Assembly: GCA_028818695.1 (NCBI GenBank)
Contig: JAPPNK010000030.1
Coordinates: 62,001-126,000, forward strand
Length of the DNA: 64,000 nucleotides
Direction: 5' to 3'
DNA from: Candidatus Poribacteria bacterium
Lineage (GTDB): Bacteria > Poribacteria > WGA-4E > GCA-2687025
The translations under genes were made by a program, and so were the position numbers. This document shows positions 3,605 through 56,241 of this stretch, in pieces. The notes beneath the pieces were generated by a model. The model worked only from the letters and a program-made list of their open reading frames with translations. It had not been told where the DNA came from and ran no database searches. Position 1 is the first letter of the stretch, and each line of letters starts with the position of its first letter.

Positions 3605-4243
3605 TCAGCGCGTCTTCAACTCGCCCCAGACAGCCGCCGCTTTCCCTTCAGGGTCCACCGACGTCAGCGCGGGATTGAAGTACGCTTGAATCTCCACCCA
3701 GTGCGACCACTGGTTCGCGGTGCTGCCGCCAATCCAGGCATGCAGATACCGCGCCTCGACCGTGTCAAAGAGGATCTTGTATCCAGCCGCCGACTCCGCG
3801 TAGGTTTCGTCGTCGGCGTCTGTGTTGAAGACCGTCGTCAAGCCGGCGATCTGCTCCAGGTTGTCCTTGTCGCCGTCCGCGACGTCGCCCTCGCCGAGCG
3901 TGGCGGACAACGCAATGATGTTGCCGTTGTAGGCGCGTCCGTCTGCCCAGTAGTGCCAGATATGGATGCCGTTGATTGGGATGACCTCTTCAAAATCGAT
4001 CCCGACGCGGGTCGGACCGCCCAGATACGGATCGGAGGCGGTTTGCCCGTCCGTCAAAAGGCCGACGTTTCCCTGACCAGGGTTCGAGTTTGCCCATGCC
4101 GGCTTTCCAAGCGCCAGGTTCTCGAGACCTTCAAAGGAGATCTCGTCCTGCTCCTGCGCGCTTGCGCTTGGCGTGTGGTAGAAAGCGGCGCCCAGTACGA
4201 GAACGGTTATCGCCGCTACAGTTGTCATGATGTGAATTCGCAA
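3605..4243 (-). CDS. Secreted discoidin-like (F5/8 type C-like) protein, paralogue 1
   Basis: 212 aa with an N-terminal signal peptide (hydrophobic MTTVAAITVLVLGAAF, cleavage probably after SASA). The mature part begins like F5/8 type C domains (ENLALGKPAWANSNPGQG, LLTDGQ) and has Trp/His-rich blocks (IHIWHYWADGR, NQWSHWVEIQAY), so it may be a beta-sandwich binding domain. The start is a TTG at 4243; AAAGGAG lies 6 nt upstream and the position matches the ATG starts of paralogues 2 and 3, which are also 212 aa. Third of three tandem paralogues downstream of guaB. Ligand unknown; the fold call is by motif resemblance only. Confidence 0.75.
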   Translation of the reverse strand: MRIHIMTTVAAITVLVLGAAFYHTPSASAQEQDEISFEGLENLALGKPAWANSNPGQGNVGLLTDGQTASDPYLGGPTRVGIDFEEVIPINGIHIWHYWADGRAYNGNIIALSATLGEGDVADGDKDNLEQIAGLTTVFNTDADDETYAESAAGYKILFDTVEARYLHAWIGGSTANQWSHWVEIQAYFNPALTSVDPEGKAAAVWGELKTR

Positions 4244-4254
4244 TGAATTCTCCT

Positions 4255-4364
4255 TTCAAAATGCGCTCCCGCATCATGAATCGTCGGGAGCTTCCTCGGT
4301 CGTTGCCGAATCGTCGGGCGGCTTCTTGAACGCCAGCCGACGCAACTCGATATGATTCGAACCT
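4255..4364 (-). pseudogene. Decayed copy of the guaB 3' end
   Basis: This stretch upstream of discoidin-like paralogue 1 aligns by eye with the last ~100 nt of guaB (about 5808-5905), sharing CTCCCGCAT, GGGAGCTTC and GGCGGCTTCT/GGTGGCTTTCT with one small insertion. The reverse translation keeps the EEAP of the GuaB C-terminus. Homology is continuous from the paralogue's start codon and ribosome site into the guaB tail, as at the 5796/5816 junction, so the junction was copied together with the gene. Confidence 0.65.
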
Positions 4365-4420
4365 CTCTATCTCATTCCTCGTCTATCCGGCGCGGGAACA
4401 ACAGAGCCGCGCCGCCATGT

Positions 4421-5059
4421 TCACCGCGTTTTCAGATCGCCCCAGACAGCCGCCGCTTTCCCTTCAGGGTCCACCGAGAGCAGGTCTGGGTTGAAATACG
4501 CCTGAATCTCCACCCAGTGCGACCACTGGTTCGCGTCGCTGCCGCCAAGCCATGCATGCAGATACTGCGCGTCAACCGCTTCAAAGACGAGCTTATAACC
4601 CGCCGCCGACTCCGCGTAGGTTTCGTCGTCGGCGTCTGTGTTGAAGATCGTCACAATGCCCGCAATATCGTCCAGTCTGTCCTTGTCGCCGTCCGCCAGA
4701 TCGCCGAAGTCGAGCGCCTCGGACAGGGCGATGATGTTGCCGGTGTAGGTGCGCCCGTCTGCCCAGTAGTGCCAGATGTGGATGCCGTTGATCTTGACGA
4801 CCTCTTCAAAGTCGACGCCGACGCGGGTCGGACCGCCCAGATACGGATCGGAGGCGGTTTCCCCGTCCGTCAGAAGCCCTGCGTGTCCTTGACCGGCGCC
4901 CCCGTTGATCCAGGTCGGCTTTTCAAACGCCAGATTCTCAAGACCTTCGAATGAGATCTGGTCCTGCGGCGGATTCTGCGCCGCCGCGTTCGAGGCGCAC
5001 CAAAATGCGGCAGCCGCCGCGAGAGCGCATAGGACTGCCGTTTTCGTATGAGTTCGCAT
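4421..5059 (-). CDS. Secreted discoidin-like protein, paralogue 2
   Basis: 212 aa after starting at the ATG at 5059, where AAAGGAG lies 5 nt upstream; the longer upstream frame is rejected. Signal peptide with an Ala-rich core ending ASNAAAQ. The mature protein shares ISFEGLENLAFEKP, SDPYLGGPTRVG(V)DFEEV, IHIWHYWADGRTY, NTDADDETYAESAAGYK and the C-terminal SVDPEGKAAAVWGDLK with its neighbours. Probably an exported carbohydrate- or surface-binding module; no catalytic residues are apparent. Same strand and length as paralogues 1 and 3, separated by about 100-180 nt. Confidence 0.75.
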   Translation of the reverse strand: MRTHTKTAVLCALAAAAAFWCASNAAAQNPPQDQISFEGLENLAFEKPTWINGGAGQGHAGLLTDGETASDPYLGGPTRVGVDFEEVVKINGIHIWHYWADGRTYTGNIIALSEALDFGDLADGDKDRLDDIAGIVTIFNTDADDETYAESAAGYKLVFEAVDAQYLHAWLGGSDANQWSHWVEIQAYFNPDLLSVDPEGKAAAVWGDLKTR

Positions 5060-5157
5060 AGATTCTCCTTTCAAAGTTGCTTCCGCTATGCTTTGCTTTT
5101 TCCGTTCTCGATGTTTCGCTGCATTCTGCCAACTACGCGCGCCCGCGTCAAGCGCCT

Positions 5158-5796
5158 TCAACGCGCCTTCAACGCGCCCCATACGGCCGCCGCTTTCCCT
5201 TCAGGGTCCACCGACAGCAGCGCGGGGTTGTAAAACGCTTGAATCTCCACCCAGTGCGAAAACTGGTTCACGTTGTTTCTGCCGAGCCAGGCATGCAGAT
5301 ACTGCGTCTCTATCGGGTCGAACACGATCTTCTTGCCCGCCTCGGTTTCAGGATAGGTTTCGTCCCCCGCGTCCGTGTTGAACACCGTCGTAATTCCTTC
5401 GATCTCATTCAGCCTGTCCTTGTCCCCGTCCAATAGATCATCGAAATGCAGCGTCTCCGACAGGGCGACAATGTTGCCTTCGTAGATCGGATTGGTCAGC
5501 CAGAAGTGCCAGATATGAACGCCGTTGATGAGGACAACCTCTTCAAAATCGATGCCGACGCGCGTCGGACCGCCGAGATACGGATCGGACTCCGTATTGC
5601 CGTCTGTCAACAACTCGGGATGCCCCTGACCGATCCCCCCGTTTGTCCATACAGGTTTTTCAAACGCCAGATTCTCAAGACCCTCAAAAGAGATGTCGTC
5701 CTGCGTTAAATCTTGCCCTTCCGCGCTCGCGAGACAACAAAGCGCGGCCGCTGTCATGAAAATGCGCAGCGCCGCTCTTGTCGTATGAGACCGCAT
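5158..5796 (-). CDS. Secreted discoidin-like protein, paralogue 3
   Basis: 212 aa, signal peptide MRSHTTRAALRIFMTAAALCCLASAEGQ, then the shared module (ISFEGLENLAFEKPVW, YLGGPTRVGIDFEEVVLINGVHIWHFW). It is the most diverged of the three in its middle (PIYEGNIVALSETLHFDDLLDG; GRNNVNQFSHW). ATG at 5796 has AAAGGAG 5 nt upstream and begins 19 nt after the guaB stop, so it may be cotranscribed with guaB. It is probably the ancestral copy, because a decayed guaB tail also precedes paralogue 1. Confidence 0.75.
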   Translation of the reverse strand: MRSHTTRAALRIFMTAAALCCLASAEGQDLTQDDISFEGLENLAFEKPVWTNGGIGQGHPELLTDGNTESDPYLGGPTRVGIDFEEVVLINGVHIWHFWLTNPIYEGNIVALSETLHFDDLLDGDKDRLNEIEGITTVFNTDAGDETYPETEAGKKIVFDPIETQYLHAWLGRNNVNQFSHWVEIQAFYNPALLSVDPEGKAAAVWGALKAR

Positions 5797-9762: not shown

Positions 9763-9875
9763 GGGTTCGCCTTTCACGCGATTCCTGTTTGCCGTTTTGA
9801 GCAGTATGCCAAAGGAGGGAGGCTTGCGCAACGGCTCGCCTTTTTCATGAAACGCGCCGCGGCGCGCAACCCGTC

Positions 9876-9895
9876 ATTCCCGCGCAAGCGGGAAT
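9876..9895. repeat. Intergenic palindrome ATTCCCGC-gcaa-GCGGGAAT
   Basis: Perfect 8-bp arms with a 4-nt loop, followed by CCAGAG. It lies between the methyltransferase-nuclease gene and the FRG-TPR gene. Same core as copies at 11699, 28798, 36312 and 56049. Confidence 0.75.
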
Positions 9896-9937
9896 CCAGA
9901 GGAGCTGGGAAACCGCGCGCTCACAAGCATGCCTGCT

Positions 9938-11624: not shown

Positions 11625-11648
11625 CAGAAATCTGACGCAGGCGTTTGC

Positions 11649-11718
11649 GTTGGGACATGCCTGAATGCGAACTCGGACGGGTTTCTGCAGGACTCTGGAT
11701 TCCCGCTTTCGCGGGAAT
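11649..11718. repeat. Partial copy of intergenic element family 2
   Basis: GTTGGGACAT at the left, then CGGACGG(G)TTTCTGC and the palindrome ATTCCCGC-tttc-GCGGGAAT (11699-11718). This aligns with the left half of the element at 28747-28882. No right terminal repeat is visible. The 302-nt gap 11555-11856 holds this repeat between two divergent promoters. Confidence 0.6.
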
Positions 11719-11771
11719 GGCGGCGGGGTGGGCGCGGGAATGAGAGCGGAAGGGAGGGCGGGCTAGGCGCT

Positions 11772-12876: not shown

Positions 12877-13527
12877 ATGATCGCGCATGAGCAGCTGTCG
12901 CTTTTTCAGCGTCAATCGGACGAGTTTTGGCGGTTCACGCTTGCCCAGTTTGAGGCGAAGGGCGGGACGGTCGCCTGCAAGGCGGGCTGCGTTCACTGCT
13001 GCAAGGCGTATGCGCAGTGTTCGGACGTTGAGGCGGATCAGATTGCCGCGGCGATGCGCGCCGATCCCGACGGGCTTGGGCGTTATGAGGCGCGGATCAA
13101 CGCCTATCTGCGCGAGCTGGCGGACAAATGGCGCGCCGCCGGCGACCCTGTACCCGATTTTGAAAAGCGGGTGGAGATGCATTTTGGGCTGAATATGCGC
13201 TGCCCGTTTTTAACCGACGGGGACCGATGCGCCGTCTATGATATGCGTCCGCAGGCGTGCCGAACGCACTGGGCGGCGGGAACGAACGAGCTTTGCAAAA
13301 GTCCGGCGACCGTCTCGAAGGCGTTGAAAATCGCGCCGACGGAGGAATCGACCCGAATGTTCGTCGAGGCACTGCGCCAAGAGGGGCGGACTGAAGAGTA
13401 CGCCTCATACGACCGAATCCAAGAGGTGTTGTCGCAAAAGGGATCGTTGACGCTGATCGCCGCCGCTGTCAAGAGGGCGTTGATGCGGCGTTCGAGCGCG
13501 GAAAGCCGACCTGAAAGGAACCCATGA
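12877..13527 (+). CDS. YkgJ-family cysteine-cluster protein
   Basis: 216 aa. The cysteine pattern CKAGCVHCCK (about residues 34-43), then CPFLTDGDRCAVYDMRPQACRTHW, matches the zinc- or iron-sulfur-binding YkgJ/UPF0153 family. Biochemical role unknown. Its stop overlaps the ATG of the first CPBP gene (ATGA), so translation is probably coupled; whether it acts with the membrane proteins is unknown. Confidence 0.85.
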   Translation: MIAHEQLSLFQRQSDEFWRFTLAQFEAKGGTVACKAGCVHCCKAYAQCSDVEADQIAAAMRADPDGLGRYEARINAYLRELADKWRAAGDPVPDFEKRVEMHFGLNMRCPFLTDGDRCAVYDMRPQACRTHWAAGTNELCKSPATVSKALKIAPTEESTRMFVEALRQEGRTEEYASYDRIQEVLSQKGSLTLIAAAVKRALMRRSSAESRPERNP

Positions 13528-14933
13528 TGGAACGCGCCGCGCCGGCCGGTTTCACCTACAAAAAGCTGCTTAAGAGGCTGGCGCCCGCCGCGGCTGCAGT
13601 CGCCGCGTGCCTGTCGCTGCTCCTGCTTGGGAGCTGGGCGAATCAGCATGAATGGGCGGTCGGCTGGCTTCGCCGGCGGTTTGAGGGGCTGGACCCTTTC
13701 CCGTTCACGTTCTGGACGGGGCTGGAGCGGGGCGGCGTCCTGATTGCGTTGAGCGTCCTTGCCGCGCTCATTCGATTCATCCGCCAAAGGGCGTCTCCAA
13801 CCGAGCGGGAGAACGAAGAGAACGAAGAGACCGATCCGCCGGAGAAGCCGAAGCTGCTTCAAAGGTTCATGGTCTGTTTCGCTTCGTTCTTCACCGTCAA
13901 CTCCCCCTTGATCTATGCGCTTCAGATCCCCGCGCTCCTGCTGTTGAAGCTGATGGGGGCGGGCGCCGGGACGCTGACGGCGGCGTCGGTCTGCGTGTGC
14001 GCAGCGTCCGCTTTCAAGAAAAAAGGCTGCTCGCGTTGGTTGAGAACCCTCCAGGGGGCTGTCGGAGGCGTTTATACAGGCTTCGCCTTTGCGCATTGGT
14101 TTGGCTCCTCTTGGTGGACGGGGCTGTGGACGACTGCGGCTCTCTACGCCGTTTCGCTTCTGACGCTTTTTGCGCTGTTCATATTGACAGCGGCCGCGCT
14201 TCAGATACGAGAGCTTTCCATGGCTGCGCTGGAACATTGGAAATGGGCGGCGGGGGTCGCGGTCGCAACGGCGTTATGGCTTTGGCTCGGCGGCTCGCTT
14301 GAATGGACGGTCGGCTGGCTTGAGCATAGATATATGGATCGCTCGGCATGGTCGTTCTGCTGGCGCATTGCAGTGGAAAGGGTCGCCGTTTCGCTCCTGG
14401 TCATGATTGCCATACATCCATTTAAAGACAGGCTTGAGGCGCTTCTCCCTGACGCAAAAGAGAAAAAGAAAAAGAAGAAGTCCGATTCTAAAACGACGCC
14501 TGAAGAGACGGCGTCTGCCTTTAACTTGGAGATAGGCCGCGTTGCCTTCAAGGTTGCGGCAGTCGCTCCCGTCGGCGAGACGATCGCGCTGCAGGCTCTC
14601 ATCATCGCGCCGTTGAGCGCTCTCGGCGCCGACATCGGAACGCAGACGGTCGTTTCGGCGCTGCTGTTTGCGCTGGCGCACTGGAGAACATCGCCCGTCC
14701 AAGCGATTGTCGCGGGGCTGCCGTGCGGGGTCTATTTCGGGTTTATGTTCGCGTTTTGGTATCCTCAGTCGATCTGGACAGCTCTATGGGTTACGGCGCT
14801 GTCGCACGCATTGAGCAACCTGTTGTCGATCTTATCGACAATACCCATCATCGTCTTCACGTTGTGGAGCGAAAAGCGTCAAAAGAAAAAGAGCGCAAAA
14901 AACGACGGCGACGCTCAAACAGACGAAGCATGA
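13524..14933 (+). CDS. Internally duplicated CPBP-family membrane protein, copy 1
   Basis: 469 aa, many transmembrane helices. The C-terminal half resembles CPBP (CAAX protease/Abi) intramembrane proteases: GETIALQ with E352 (family EExxxR, here first E to G and R to Q), LLFALAHW with H386, ALSHALSN with H428 and N432. The N-terminal half repeats the same layout (VNSPLIYALQIPALLLLK ... GAVGGVYTGFAFAHW ... LYAVSLL) without these residues, so it is a degenerate duplicate. A lysine-rich loop (EKKKKKKSDSK) joins the halves. AAAGGA lies 4 nt before the ATG. First of three tandem copies. Confidence 0.75.
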   Translation: MMERAAPAGFTYKKLLKRLAPAAAAVAACLSLLLLGSWANQHEWAVGWLRRRFEGLDPFPFTFWTGLERGGVLIALSVLAALIRFIRQRASPTERENEENEETDPPEKPKLLQRFMVCFASFFTVNSPLIYALQIPALLLLKLMGAGAGTLTAASVCVCAASAFKKKGCSRWLRTLQGAVGGVYTGFAFAHWFGSSWWTGLWTTAALYAVSLLTLFALFILTAAALQIRELSMAALEHWKWAAGVAVATALWLWLGGSLEWTVGWLEHRYMDRSAWSFCWRIAVERVAVSLLVMIAIHPFKDRLEALLPDAKEKKKKKKSDSKTTPEETASAFNLEIGRVAFKVAAVAPVGETIALQALIIAPLSALGADIGTQTVVSALLFALAHWRTSPVQAIVAGLPCGVYFGFMFAFWYPQSIWTALWVTALSHALSNLLSILSTIPIIVFTLWSEKRQKKKSAKNDGDAQTDEA

Positions 14934-16327
14934 CGGAACGCGCCGCGCCGGCCGGTTTCACCTACAAAAAGCTGCTTAAGAGGCTGGCGCCCGCCGCGGT
15001 TGCAGTCGCCGCGTGCTTGTCGCTGCTCCTGCTTGGGAGCTGGACGAATCAACATGAATGGGCGGTCGGCTGGCTTCGCCGGCGGTTTGAGGGGCTGGAC
15101 CTGTTCCCGTTCACGTTCTGGACGGGGCTGGAGCGGGGCGGCATCCTGATTGCGTTGAGCGTCCTTGCCGCGCTCATTCGATTCATCCGCCAAAAGGCGT
15201 CTCCAACCGAGCAAGAGACCGATCCGCCGGAGAAGCCGAAGCTGCTTCAAAGGTTCCTGGTCTGTTTCGCTTCGTTCTTCTCTGTCAACTCCCCTTTGAC
15301 CTATGCGCTTCAGGTCCCCGCGCTCCTGCTGTTAAAGCTGCTGGGGGCGGGCGTCGGGACGCTGGCGGCGGCGTCGGTCTGCGTGTGCGCAGCGTTCATT
15401 TACAAGAAAAAAGGCTTCTCGCGCTGGTTGAGAACCCTGCAGGGGGCTGTCGGAGGCGTTTATACCGGCTTCGCCTTCGCGCATTGGGTTGGGTCCTCTT
15501 GGTGGACGGCGCTGTGGACGACCGCGGCTCTCTACGCCGTTTCGCTTCTGACGCTTTTTGCGCTTTTCACATTGGCAGCGGCGGCGCTTCAGATACGAGA
15601 TCTTTCCAAGGATGCGCTGGAATATTGGAAATGGACGGCGGGGGTCGCGGTCGCAACGGCGTTATGGCTCTGGTTCGGCGGCTCGCTTGAATGGACGGTC
15701 GGCTGGCTTGAGCATAGATATATGGATCGCTCGGCATGGTCGTTCTGCTGGCGCATTGCAGTGGAAAGGGTCGCCGTTTCGCTCCTGGTCATGATTGCCA
15801 TACATCCATTTAAAGACAGGCTTGAGGCGCTTCTCCCTGACGCAAAAGAGAAAAAGAAAAAGAAGAAGTCCGATTCTAAAACGACGCCTGAAGAGACGGC
15901 GTCTGCCTTTAACTTGGAGATAGGCCGCGTTGCCTTCAAGGTTGCGGCAGTCGCTCCCGTCGGCGAGACGATCGCGCTGCAGGCTCTCATCATCGCGCCG
16001 TTGAGCGCTCTCGGCGCCGACATCGGAACGCAGACGGTCGTTTCGGCGCTGCTGTTTGCGCTGGCGCACTGGAGAACATCGCCCGTCCAAGCGATTGTCG
16101 CGGGGCTGCCGTGCGGGGTCTATTTCGGGTTTATGTTCGCGTTTTGGTATCCTCAGTCGATCTGGACAGCTCTATGGGTTACGGCGCTGTCGCACTCATT
16201 GACCAACCTGTTGACGATCTTCTCGGGAATACCCATCTTCATCTTCAAGTACAAGGCGTGGAGCGAAAAGCATGAAAAGAAAAAGAGCGCGAAAAACGAC
16301 GGCAAAGCTGAAACCGATGCAGCATGA
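14930..16327 (+). CDS. Internally duplicated CPBP-family membrane protein, copy 2
   Basis: 465 aa. The start ATG at 14930 overlaps the stop of copy 1 (ATGA); a longer frame from 14723 reads into copy 1 and is rejected. Same two-half architecture and motifs as copy 1. From about 15677 to 16197 the DNA appears identical to copies 1 and 3, whereas the 5' third differs by scattered substitutions and a shorter acidic linker (QETDPPEK). The C-terminal tail (FSGIPIFIFKYKAWSEKHEKKK) matches copy 3 rather than copy 1. Confidence 0.75.
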   Translation: MTERAAPAGFTYKKLLKRLAPAAVAVAACLSLLLLGSWTNQHEWAVGWLRRRFEGLDLFPFTFWTGLERGGILIALSVLAALIRFIRQKASPTEQETDPPEKPKLLQRFLVCFASFFSVNSPLTYALQVPALLLLKLLGAGVGTLAAASVCVCAAFIYKKKGFSRWLRTLQGAVGGVYTGFAFAHWVGSSWWTALWTTAALYAVSLLTLFALFTLAAAALQIRDLSKDALEYWKWTAGVAVATALWLWFGGSLEWTVGWLEHRYMDRSAWSFCWRIAVERVAVSLLVMIAIHPFKDRLEALLPDAKEKKKKKKSDSKTTPEETASAFNLEIGRVAFKVAAVAPVGETIALQALIIAPLSALGADIGTQTVVSALLFALAHWRTSPVQAIVAGLPCGVYFGFMFAFWYPQSIWTALWVTALSHSLTNLLTIFSGIPIFIFKYKAWSEKHEKKKSAKNDGKAETDAA

Positions 16328-17742
16328 CGGAACGCGCCGCGCCGGCCGATTTCACCTATACGAAGCTGCTTAAGAGGCTGGCGCCCGCCGCGGCTGCAGT
16401 CGCCGCGTGCCTGTCGCTGCTCCTGCTTGGGAGCTGGACGAATCAACATGAGTGGGCGGTCGGCTGGCTTCGCCGGCGGTTTGACGGGCTGAACCCGCTG
16501 CCGTTCACTCTCTGGATGGGGCTGGAGAGAGGCGGCGTCCTGATTGCGTTGAGCGTCCTTGCCGCGCTCATTCGATTCATTCGCCAAAAGGCGTCTTCAA
16601 CCAAGCGGGAGAACGAAGAGACCAATCCGCCGGAGAAGCTGAAGCTGTTTCAAAGGTTCATGGTCTGTTTCGCTTCGTTCTTCGCTGTCAACTCCCCCTT
16701 GACCTATGCGCTTCAGATCCCCGCGCTCCTGCTGTTGAAGCTGCTTGGGGCGGGCGCCGGGACGCTGACAGCGGCGTCGGTCTTCGTCTGCGCAGCGTTT
16801 GTTTATAAGAAAAAATACGAGAAAAAGGGCGGCTCCCGCTGGTTGAGAACCCTGCAGGGGGCTGTCGGAGGCGTTTATACAGGCTTCGCCTTTGCGCATT
16901 GGATTGGCTCCTCTTGGTGGACGGCGCTGTGGACGACCGCGGCTCTCTACGCCGCCTCGCTTCTGACGCTTTTTGCGCTTTTCACATTGGCAGCGGCGGC
17001 GCTTCAGATACGAGATCTTTCCAAGGATGCGCTGGAATATTGGAAATGGACGGCGGGGGTCGCGGTCGCAACGGCGTTATGGCTCTGGTTCGGCGGCTCG
17101 CTTGAATGGACGGTCGGCTGGCTTGAGCATAGATATATGGATCGCTCGGCATGGTCGTTCTGCTGGCGCATTGCAGTGGAAAGGGTCGCCGTTTCGCTCC
17201 TGGTCATGATTGCCATACATCCATTTAAAGACAGGCTTGAGGCGCTTCTCCCTGACGCAAAAGAGAAAAAGAAAAAGAAGAAGTCCGATTCTAAAACGAC
17301 GCCTGAAGAGACGGCGTCTGCCTTTAACTTGGAGATAGGCCGCGTTGCCTTCAAGGTTGCGGCAGTCGCTCCCGTCGGCGAGACGATCGCGCTGCAGGCT
17401 CTCATCATCGCGCCGTTGAGCGCTCTCGGCGCCGACATCGGAACGCAGACGGTCGTTTCGGCGCTGCTGTTTGCGCTGGCGCACTGGAGAACATCGCCCG
17501 TCCAAGCGATTGTCGCGGGGCTGCCGTGCGGGGTCTATTTCGGGTTTATGTTCGCGTTTTGGTATCCTCAGTCGATCTGGACAGCTCTATGGGTTACGGC
17601 GCTGTCGCACTCATTGACCAACCTGTTGACGATCTTCTCGGGAATACCCATCTTCATCTTCAAGTACAAGGCGTGGAGCGAAAAGCATGAAAAGAAAAAG
17701 AGCGCGAAAAACGACAGCAAAGCTGAAACCGACGCAGCATGA
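16324..17742 (+). CDS. Internally duplicated CPBP-family membrane protein, copy 3
   Basis: 472 aa, overlapping copy 2 by ATGA. It differs from copy 2 mainly in the first third (ADFTYTKLL, FDGLNPLPFTLWMGLERGG, a four-residue insertion KKYEKKGGSRW) and is otherwise nearly identical, with the same E/H/H-N motif set in the C-terminal half. The shared tail and 3' block suggest recent duplication or gene conversion between copies. Function unknown; CPBP proteins elsewhere act in bacteriocin immunity, protease signalling or as scaffolds. Confidence 0.75.
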   Translation: MTERAAPADFTYTKLLKRLAPAAAAVAACLSLLLLGSWTNQHEWAVGWLRRRFDGLNPLPFTLWMGLERGGVLIALSVLAALIRFIRQKASSTKRENEETNPPEKLKLFQRFMVCFASFFAVNSPLTYALQIPALLLLKLLGAGAGTLTAASVFVCAAFVYKKKYEKKGGSRWLRTLQGAVGGVYTGFAFAHWIGSSWWTALWTTAALYAASLLTLFALFTLAAAALQIRDLSKDALEYWKWTAGVAVATALWLWFGGSLEWTVGWLEHRYMDRSAWSFCWRIAVERVAVSLLVMIAIHPFKDRLEALLPDAKEKKKKKKSDSKTTPEETASAFNLEIGRVAFKVAAVAPVGETIALQALIIAPLSALGADIGTQTVVSALLFALAHWRTSPVQAIVAGLPCGVYFGFMFAFWYPQSIWTALWVTALSHSLTNLLTIFSGIPIFIFKYKAWSEKHEKKKSAKNDSKAETDAA

Positions 17743-17820
17743 TGGAACGCGCCGCCTCGATTAACTTCGCCTACATAAAACAGCTCAAAAAACGGATCCC
17801 CGCCGCCCGCCGCGCCGACT
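17739..17820 (+). pseudogene. Truncated fourth copy of the CPBP gene
   Basis: ATGATGGAACGCGCCGC restarts at the ATGA overlap exactly as in the other copies, followed by INFAYIKQLKKRIPAA, which parallels GFTYKKLLKRLAPAA. Homology then stops and the frame runs on only to 17939 into unrelated DNA. It is a remnant left by deletion or unequal crossover. Confidence 0.7.
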
Positions 17821-25151: not shown

Positions 25152-25271
25152 GAGAGGCGCTCCTTGGGAGGCGTCTTCGCGGGAAGGTTTGGGTCATGTT
25201 AACGGACGCGCGCCGCCCTGTCAAACGGCTCCGCCTATCCGACGGCTGTCTCCCGCGCCTCTTCTCCCGTC

Positions 25272-25291
25272 ATTTCTGCAAAAGCGGGAAT
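25272..25291. repeat. Imperfect intergenic palindrome (ATTTCTGC-aaaa-GCGGGAAT)
   Basis: A degenerate member of the GGGAATCCAGA palindrome family; the left arm carries two changes. The right flank (TCCAGAAACCGCGCTAAG) resembles the copy near 7414-7435. Confidence 0.5.
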
Positions 25292-25325
25292 CCAGAAACC
25301 GCGCTAAGCGTCTAAACCCCCCAAC

Positions 25326-28667: not shown

Positions 28668-28746
28668 CAATCAAATAGGAGATTCTGCTGCGATGTTAGC
28701 GCCGATCAAGCCGGCATGCAACCGCCTTTCCTGACCTTAGCGCTTT

Positions 28747-28882
28747 AGTTGGGACATTCCGCCTAACGAACGCGGACGGTTTCTGCGGCGCCTCTGGATT
28801 CCCGCTTTCGCGGGAATGACGACCTGGTTGGCGGCGCCTTTTTCCCATCAATAGAGCGATCATTCGTTCAAATATCCCAACT
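28747..28882 (+). mobile_element. MITE-like element, family 2
   Basis: 136 bp bounded by inverted repeats AGTTGGGACATT and its near-complement AATATCCCAACT, with the palindrome ATTCCCGC-tttc-GCGGGAAT at 28798-28817. TTTA on each side (if the ends are taken at GTTGGGA) may be a 4-bp duplication. A partial relative lies at 11649-11718. With the hairpin at 28629 it accounts for the 28600-28935 gap. Confidence 0.55.
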
Positions 28883-28935
28883 TTACGCATGAGGTCGGCC
28901 TTCCTCCCCCTGCCTGACTGGGAGGCTGTTTGAGG

Positions 28936-32699: not shown

Positions 32700-32927
32700 T
32701 TAAGTCGGGATATGGGCGCAAAATGCCGTTCTATTTGGGGAAAGGGCGGCGCTCCCATGCGGCGATGTATCAAACCTTACGATCCAATTGGATCCGCAGC
32801 GAGGACAACGAATGTCATGGCGGTAGGAGCGCGGGCGAGGCGTATGCGGCGCTCCTGTTGAACCAACAGGGTCCGATTCTATCCTAATCGCCGCATGGGC
32901 GTACCGCCCCAGATAGACGCTTGACAT
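32700..32927 (-). pseudogene. Possible zinc-ribbon transposase remnant
   Basis: The frame contains HDIRCPRCGSNWIVRF, which resembles the zinc-ribbon start of IS1-type transposases, followed by unrelated residues and a stop. No catalytic domain or clear terminal repeats. It is the only recognisable content of the 32618-32980 gap, apart from the local palindrome CTGTTG-aac-CAACAG near 32856. Confidence 0.25.
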
Positions 32928-35565: not shown

Positions 35566-36189
35566 CTAGGCGTCTCCGCGCCGGTTTTCAGGTATGATGA
35601 GTATGCTGACGACGACGCCCTGTATGGACGCCCCGTTCTCCGATTCGATTTCAATGTCGGGGTAATTCTTGCCGCTGTTTTCGGAGGCGAGCGCGCACCG
35701 CCCGCCCTCTCGCATGCGGAGCCGTTTGAGCGCACTTTCGCCGTTGATGAGCGCCGCGACGATGTCGCCGTTCCGCGCCTGCAGGTTCGGGTCGACGACG
35801 ACGCGAGCGCCCTGCGGTATGTGCGCGTCCACCATCGAGTCGCCCTTGACGGCAAGCACAAAACGGCCTGAGCGTCCGCCGAATTCAGACGGCCAAAGAT
35901 GGCGCCCAATCACATTCTGCGTCGCTTCATCCGGCGGTCCCGCGCTGATCCAACCCAGTTCCGGCAAAAACGCGCCGTCTATCTCCTCAAACAGCGCGGA
36001 CGGCGGCACATCAAAATAGCGCGCCAGCTTCGGCAGCAGTTTCAGCGGAGCATGCTGATAGGCTCCGCGCATGAGATTGGAGACGCGCTGCTGCGAAATG
36101 CCGAGCGCGTCCGCAATCTCGCGTTGAGGAATCGACCGCCCCTCCTTCAGCCGCTTCCGCTCTACAAGTTCGCGTATGCGCATCTTCAT
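35566..36189 (-). CDS. CI/LexA-like self-cleaving repressor (XRE HTH + S24 peptidase)
   Basis: 207 aa. N-terminal XRE-type HTH (PQREIADALGISQQRVSNLMRG, 21-42), then a cleavage-site-like A83-G84 (WISAGPP), nucleophile S118 (GDSMVDAHIPQGARVVVD) and general base K155 (ESALKRL). The A-G, Ser and Lys positions and the 37-residue Ser-Lys spacing match E. coli LexA (84-85, 119, 156) shifted by one. It probably responds to RecA/DNA damage. The target is unknown; it could control the PhyH gene that follows or be the cell's SOS regulator. No prophage genes lie nearby. Confidence 0.88.
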   Translation of the reverse strand: MKMRIRELVERKRLKEGRSIPQREIADALGISQQRVSNLMRGAYQHAPLKLLPKLARYFDVPPSALFEEIDGAFLPELGWISAGPPDEATQNVIGRHLWPSEFGGRSGRFVLAVKGDSMVDAHIPQGARVVVDPNLQARNGDIVAALINGESALKRLRMREGGRCALASENSGKNYPDIEIESENGASIQGVVVSILIIPENRRGDA

Positions 36190-36256
36190 CGTCCGCCTCT
36201 CCATACCGCTCTATCATAAAGGCGCAGGCTGAATTTGTAAAGCCGATTCCGCAACA

Positions 36257-36404
36257 GGTATTCTTACAAACGATGATATACGAAAATCCAGTTCAAATCG
36301 GACACATCGCCATTCCCGCGAAAGCGGGAATCCAGAGTTCTCCCAGACAGCCTCCACATTCCAAAAACGGCTTTAAAATCAAACCATCGTCTGTAGAGAC
36401 TGCC
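36257..36404 (-). mobile_element. MITE-like element, family 1, copy B
   Basis: About 148 bp in inverted orientation relative to copies A and C. The right end carries CCATCGTCTGTAGAGACTGCC, the left end the diverged partner GGTATTCTTACAAACGATG; the centre has ATTCCCGC-gaaa-GCGGGAAT (36312-36331) and GGATTTCCAG-like arms. CAGGTA occurs at both edges (36255 and 36411), possibly an eroded duplication. It fills most of the 36190-36519 gap. Confidence 0.7.
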
Positions 36405-55955: not shown

Positions 55956-55974
55956 CCGGCGTCTTAAGTTTGGA

Positions 55975-56124
55975 GGCTGTCTCTATGACGATGGTTTTGA
56001 TTTTAGAGAACTGTTTTGGAATGCGGAGGCTGTCTGGGAGAACTCTGGATTCCCGCTTTCGCGGGAATGACGACCTGCCCGATTCGAACAGAATTTTCGT
56101 ATGTCATCGTCTGTAGAGATTGCC
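55975..56124 (+). mobile_element. MITE-like element, family 1, copy C (with 8-bp target duplication)
   Basis: 150 bp, inverted terminal repeats GGCTGTCTCTATGACGATGG / complement of CATCGTCTGTAGAGATTGCC, central palindrome ATTCCCGC-tttc-GCGGGAAT (56049-56068). Flanked by perfect 8-bp direct repeats AGTTTGGA (55967-55974 and 56125-56132), the expected footprint of transposition. No coding capacity. Confidence 0.8.
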
Positions 56125-56241
56125 AGTTTGGACATCGCAGTGTATGAGCCGCGGTCATCAGCAAACAAGCGCCAACGTCGGCAAGTACGTTTTACAGAAG
56201 CGGTTTCTTTGGGTATCATATGAGCAGGCACACAACGGAAT

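Follow-up and report, generated by a model that had tools for sequence, protein, structure and literature searches.

The stretch of DNA analysed here (64,000 nucleotides, positions 62001-126000 of contig C19 in the 3.57-Mb genome G000, called the window below) contains three similar short repeats, and these raise the question of what moves such elements and how their target sites are chosen. The initial annotation had described full-length copies A, B and C, all intergenic, with imperfect terminal inverted repeats (TIRs) of about 20 bp, a central GGGAAT palindrome, perfect repeats flanking copy C and a less regular pair flanking copy A. Each of these features was found at the place given for it. 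The palindrome is ATTCCCGC-TTTC-GCGGGAAT, the flanks of copy A form only an imperfect duplication (CTCCTGTC/CTCCGTC), and the three copies do lie between open reading frames (ORFs):

55975-56124, + strand: MITE copy C, full length, 150 bp, between tandem genes
55967-55974, no strand: left 8-bp target duplication of copy C, AGTTTGGA, its register confirmed genome-wide
56125-56132, no strand: right 8-bp target duplication of copy C, AGTTTGGA, an exact match to the left one
56044-56072, + strand: TCTGGATTCCCGCTTTCGCGGGAATGACG, the CGTC-type REP palindrome at the centre of copy C, family identity from PMC3733652
21833-21994, + strand: full-length MITE copy A, located between convergent genes, its palindrome interrupted by a 12-bp insert
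36257-36404, − strand: full-length MITE copy B, located between divergent genes and without a remaining duplication

A MITE family with 8-bp target duplications

The genome-wide BLASTN comparison that the initial annotation had proposed returned 40 matches with E<=1e-38, so that at least 40 of 306 first-look candidates are confirmed copies. When at most 2 mismatches were allowed, G000 contained 106 matches to the TIR core TCTCTACAGACGATG and a single match to its reversed control. In 864 kb of stretches we counted by hand 19 copies that span both ends, which extrapolates to about 80 per genome. Inspection of the flanks, also proposed earlier, revealed perfect 8-bp duplications at one exact register (GGCAGT...GGCTACC|) in 15 of 49 distinct full copies, with neighbouring registers giving at most 5; duplications identical at 7 or more of the 8 positions accompany 22 of the 49. 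Because of the 40 BLAST matches, the excess of TIR-core matches over the control and the single register of the duplications, the family is not a product of chance, and its reality is confirmed.

The elements are 146-177 bp long, mostly 150-151 bp, which leaves no room for a transposase gene, and their consensus ends, GGCAGTCTCTATAGGCGATGA and GGTAGCCTCTACAGGCGATGA, are inverted repeats of about 21 bp. They are thus short, non-autonomous and multi-copy, with TIRs and target duplications of constant length (8 bp), as is characteristic of bacterial MITEs. A whole element can be folded as a single long hairpin (-56.3 kcal/mol, z -3.8). The MITE had no match in 59 relatives, in one of which the palindrome alone was present, and an Rfam search of the 64-kb window gave zero matches. 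The many copies and the 8-bp duplications elsewhere in the genome support the earlier proposal that these are non-autonomous elements on which an unseen transposase acts in trans. The fixed promoter distance, the putative IS1-type parent, the REP identity of the palindrome and a second MITE family, all described below, go beyond that proposal.

A fixed distance between MITE ends and predicted promoters

The MITE tends to insert exactly 15 bases upstream of the −35 boxes of predicted sigma70 promoters. A TTGACA-like hexamer matching at 4 or more of 6 positions lies at exactly +15 from 35 of 119 distinct ends, where 3.8 were expected from a background of 3.2% (p 7e-24), and the more stringent limit of at least 5 of 6 is reached at 19 of the 119, against a background of 0.45-0.49% (p 4e-23). 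This offset was first noticed and then tested in the same MITE copies; the larger elements, the other genera and the E. coli control discussed below were examined later. All promoters are predictions from sequence. At left MITE ends, T, T and G peak at +15, +16 and +17 (63, 63 and 54%), and downstream peaks of the form T-A---T at +38, +39 and +43 correspond to a −10 box separated from the −35 box by a 17-bp spacer, the predicted −35 box reading away from the element. A joint −35/−10 score of 8 or more out of 12 is attained by 24 of 121 ends and by 0.12% of random genome positions. The promoter may be faced by either end, although left ends are somewhat commoner. When only the well-duplicated copies are considered, the +15 rule holds in 11 of 22 (p 2e-8) and is as strong as in old copies. 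In the window it is obeyed by copy B, beside a minus-strand gene that starts at 36204:

36236-36241, − strand: predicted −35 box TTTACA, which obeys the offset rule: it reads away from copy B and is separated from its right end by exactly 15 bp
36213-36218, − strand: predicted −10 box TATGAT, 17 bp after the −35 box and upstream of ORF 35566-36204 (−)

A recognisable −35 box at +14 to +16 is absent from both sides of 17 of the 49 full copies, including A and C. The two kinds of end could not be told apart by whether an ORF starts downstream (20/27 versus 31/46), which speaks neither for nor against the rule.

A priori, a link with promoters might be produced by selection acting on random intergenic insertions, as those inside promoters or genes would be lost. 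MITEs generally pile up between genes, and the copies that have no nearby promoter would be in keeping with such a process. Selection would, however, be expected to leave a broad zone of tolerated positions, whereas the data reveal a peak one base wide, with 35 ends carrying the hexamer (>=4/6) at +15, 6 at +14 and 4 at +16. For this reason, and for others that emerge below, we regard random insertion followed by selection as very unlikely.

Candidate parent elements and the type of transposase

Two resident multi-copy insertion sequences, IS-A (5 copies) and IS-B (4 copies), are visible only as contig ends. Many contigs stop 54-55 bp inside one of these repeats, the pattern expected when a short-read assembler meets identical multi-copy elements. 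The copies were reconstructed from pairs of contigs:

IS-A: C8/C15; C9/C2; C23/C12 end; C30 start/C12 start; C30 end/C18
IS-B: C13/C27; C29/C16; C34/C10; C32/C14

When the flanks were paired in this way, perfect 8-bp duplications appeared in all nine copies; that of the C32/C14 copy had been predicted before the C32 end sequence was fetched, and then matched. The TIR of IS-A is a perfect 21 bp, GGTAGTACCTGAAGGCGATGG, and that of IS-B is GGTGGTACGCTCATGCGATGG. Both elements have the ends expected of the IS1 family, namely TIRs of about 20-24 bp starting with GGT and duplications of 8-9 bp. They also share the promoter offset of the MITE, since a −35-like hexamer (>=4/6) is located at exactly +15 on one side of 7 of the 9 copies (p 1e-7). 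The IS-A copy at the C30 end has TTGATC at +14, and the IS-B copy at C32 is followed by TTTCTA and then TATGAT. In all four IS-B copies it is the InsA-side end that faces the promoter. At C15/C8 the promoter, 7 bp, GTGGAAGG, IS-A, GTGGAAGG, MITE and GTGGAAGG succeed one another, and an IS and a MITE are similarly arranged at C2/C9, shifted by one base. Such a pair of insertions, one after the other at a single nucleotide position, is to be expected if the distance is fixed. Selection among random insertions accounts poorly both for this sharing of one 8-bp target by two elements and for the presence of the same offset in young IS copies with perfect duplications.

These elements lend weight to the proposal of an unseen transposase, as they are resident, have TIRs similar to those of the MITE and have lost their interiors from the assembly. 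The search for an IS with matching ends, suggested by the initial annotation, was successful in part: IS-A agrees with the left end of the MITE at 16 of 22 bases and has 8-bp duplications in 5 of 5 copies, but its interior is missing. Because 6 of the 22 terminal positions differ, the MITE may have as its exact parent a different IS of this group, which perhaps no longer exists. With the interiors missing, no intact IS-A or IS-B transposase gene is present in the assembly, and in the 55 bp available from each end of IS-A no transposase fragment was seen. Paired TIRs 0.2-4 kb apart were considered as a possible intact parent and rejected, as there were only two pairs, both composed of the ends of separate short copies.

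The transposase type is suggested by remnants of IS-B at C26:6880, C12:16348 and window positions 32745-32908, all of which keep the left end, the latter two keeping both ends:

32745-32908, − strand: internally deleted IS-B-type remnant with both terminal repeats and the decayed start of an InsA-like zinc-finger frame

The sequence TTGACA is found 12 bp outside the 32908 end of this remnant. In those on C26 and C12 a ribosome-binding site precedes an open frame, MxRPRSYRHDIRCIHCGSNWIIN..GKDRGKQTALCRQCETRHTP. This InsA-like N-terminus scores 26.2 bits against the IS1/IS1595 zinc-binding model NF050000, just under the cut-off of 28, and its identity to a protein of G002, a member of another genus of the same family, is 69%. 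A second G002 element (L201) contains an A7 frameshift (slippery) site, and its two frames, joined by us, score 128.5 bits against NF033558 transpos_IS1 (cut-off 100 bits), a full IS1 match seen only in this relative. Its ends are GGTGGTGCTCCTGATCCATGATGATA and GGTGTTCCTAACTCATGATGATA, and beyond the right end there are 15 bp and then TTGACA. G007, which belongs to a different family within the class, has an IS1-type element whose sequence begins GGTATTCTCTATAGATGACGGTAATGG; this element is 15 bp from TTGACC-N17-TATAAT and matches the left end of the MITE at 16 of 22 bases. An IS1-type end in G003 has TGGACA at +15. By hand count, 3 of about 10 IS1-type ends in other genera, a small sample, are at +15 (p 1e-5). 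The loci L198 (G000:C12:16348-16482), which is the C12 remnant, and L191 (G000:C26:6690-6827) derive from IS-B, retain the beginning of its transposase with the zinc finger and appear as intermediates between IS and MITE. An internally deleted IS1-type element of about 210 bp next to a tRNA-like gene (L242, G007:C40) has its predicted promoter at +5, not +15.

Other searches were less productive. PF03400 had no match in the G000 assembly, as is expected if the IS interiors are missing from it; an automatic search of the class for complete IS1 copies with exact TIRs and duplications found none, and an InsB scan of the genome contigs matched only distant Aquificales-type elements. In a control with 20 E. 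coli IS1 copies, 2 of 40 ends were at +15 with no peak, and many copies were inside genes. Since these copies lack the peak, a preference for promoters is not something that IS1 shows in general, and the missing peak is a further argument against random insertion and selection.

A comparable geometry is known from Mutator-like elements. TnGBS/ISLre2 (p-MULT 3) and some ISKra4 (p-MULT 4) elements duplicate 8-9 bp of their target and insert at a distance of 15-17 bp upstream of −35 boxes, in an oriented or unoriented manner depending on the asymmetry of their ends, and contact of their transposases with RNA polymerase has been proposed (PMC3942029). The G000 elements insert within the same 15-17 bp, and a transposase of this kind might move the MITE, in which case its likeness to IS1 ends would be accidental. 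The insertion geometry, the duplication length and the terminal C are all as reported (PMC3942029), and the 46-aa N-terminus of IS-B also matches the zinc-binding model IS256_N_4Cys. However, the G002 protein to which the frame between the IS-B ends is related is of the IS1 family along its whole length, and both IS-A and the G007 element have the terminal likeness to the MITE noted above. In G000 itself, whose assembly lacks the IS interiors, neither ISKra4 (NF033572) nor Transposase_mut (PF00872) was matched; UPF0236 (PF06782) matched nowhere at all and is hence uninformative for this genome. We therefore consider a Mutator-like mover unlikely. On present evidence the G000 transposase appears to be of IS1 type, and the system works like TnGBS/ISLre2/ISKra4 yet is not one of them.

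Like IS-A and IS-B, members of the IS1 family (IS1, ISAba3-like) have TIRs starting GGTGGT or GGTAGT and 8-bp duplications; an InsA-like zinc finger is shared with IS-B, and the A7 site with the G002 relative. The IS1-family composite transposon Tn6645 has the TIR GGTGGTGTTTCAAAAAGTATGCTG and 8-bp duplications (PMC6382973). The G000 elements differ from the E. coli IS1 copies in their insertion 15 bp upstream of −35 boxes, and no report of IS1-type promoter targeting was found in the open-access papers searched. Because the IS interiors are absent from the assembly, we infer rather than observe that the IS-A/IS-B group moves the MITE by means of an IS1-type transposase.

The REP core and a model for MITE transposition

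Read as CGTCATTCCCGCGAAAGCGGGAATCCA, the centre of the MITE consists of a CGTC tag, an 8-bp stem, a 4-base loop and a CCA tail. This is the structure of CGTC-1 REPs, identical with Neisseria dRS3, in which the stem starts with AT and for which no linked transposase was found, several transposases being suggested as possible movers (PMC3733652). The fit is CGTC-ATTCCCGC-GAAA-GCGGGAAT-CCA, on the other strand of the MITE core. In G000, by contrast, two MITE families, each with TIRs and duplications, are centred on the CGTC REP. The following belong to the window:

28732-28897, + strand: full copy from a second MITE family (f2), whose TIRs, TGACCTTAGCGCTTTAGTTGGGACAT, are unrelated to those of family 1 but whose REP core is the same
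11631-11734, + strand: partial copy of the second family
9872-9900, − strand: CGTC-type REP core without clear MITE arms
25268-25296, − strand: CGTC-type REP core without clear MITE arms

About 25 full copies of the second family are present in the DNA examined. Its ends are TGACCTTAGCGCTTTAGTTGGGACAT...ATGAGGTCG, its duplications are of about 8 bp and mostly imperfect, and a predicted −35 box is located at +10/+11 from 9 of 35 left ends at >=5/6 (p 3e-8).

The Neisseria NIME are high-copy intergenic mosaics around an ATTCCC-N8-GGGAAT core, as are the repeats of G000, and Correia elements target TA. The G000 MITE is set apart from dRS3/NIME and Correia-type repeats by its 8-bp duplications and different TIRs. 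Nevertheless, it might be a REP-driven mosaic like the dRS3/NIME arrays, spread by recombination or by a tyrosine transposase, with the TIRs secondary. CGTC-type palindromes occur at about 268 places in the genome, many of them without family-1 arms, and at several loci the left arm of family 1 is joined to other right arms, which implies that arms recombine around the REP core. On the other hand, recombination makes no duplications, and the 8-bp ones seen here border the outer arm ends exactly and not the REP. Such an origin is disfavoured for the full copies, and as an account of the family we judge it highly improbable, although mosaics that have only the left arm may be explained in this way.

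In our judgement it is probable that transposases of the IS1 family, belonging to the IS-A/IS-B group and targeting promoters, act in trans on these MITEs of about 150 bp, with the REP as a passenger. The transposase would pair two ends of about 21 bp and join them to a target of which 8 bp are duplicated. The preferred target would be a sigma70 promoter, perhaps one occupied by RNA polymerase at the time, so that recognition would depend on the polymerase and not on bare DNA sequence. The cut would leave the element end 15 bp upstream of the −35 box (the 8-bp duplication, 7 bp and then the hexamer), with the core promoter intact and only the upstream region displaced. Most insertions should then do almost no harm, and the many copies of the MITE would be explained. 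Each MITE carries a CGTC-type REP hairpin, and transposition would spread REPs through intergenic DNA. A broader view is that an IS1-family lineage has independently evolved the TnGBS/ISLre2/ISKra4 geometry, probably by docking on RNA polymerase, and that its MITEs are the long-missing vehicle of CGTC REPs; we hold this to be evenly balanced between right and wrong.

Some Mutator-like transposases of bacteria were already known to choose targets at a fixed distance from promoters. That IS1-type elements keep an equal distance suggests that unrelated transposases may have a general dock in common, RNA polymerase bound at promoters. MITE passengers would also be a concrete answer to the question of how CGTC REPs, described without a transposase (PMC3733652), could multiply. 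A promoter-tagging tool could also be made from a mini-transposon whose insertions fall directly upstream of promoters and leave them unbroken.

Several other repeats were noted. The contig ends of C3, C6, C16, C21, C23, C24 and C31 share the sequence GAGTATCTGTGTTCAAAGTCAATC and those of C1, C5, C10, C19 and C32 share TACATGATTACTTTACCCCTCAGG; these are possibly the two ends of another multi-copy IS whose interior is also missing. This candidate would have a single insertion point within the REP palindrome, following CGCGG, and would be a REP-targeting element of the kind treated in PMC1525189. A further multi-copy repeat coincides with contig breaks at the starts of C3, C26 and C6, where its end, GGGAACTATATGCTTGACTA, is seen. 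Within the window, positions 13523-17755 comprise three tandem coding repeats of about 1.4 kb (93-95% identical), and positions 3605-5705 three tandem repeats of about 550 bp (77-84% identical) with overlapping ORFs.
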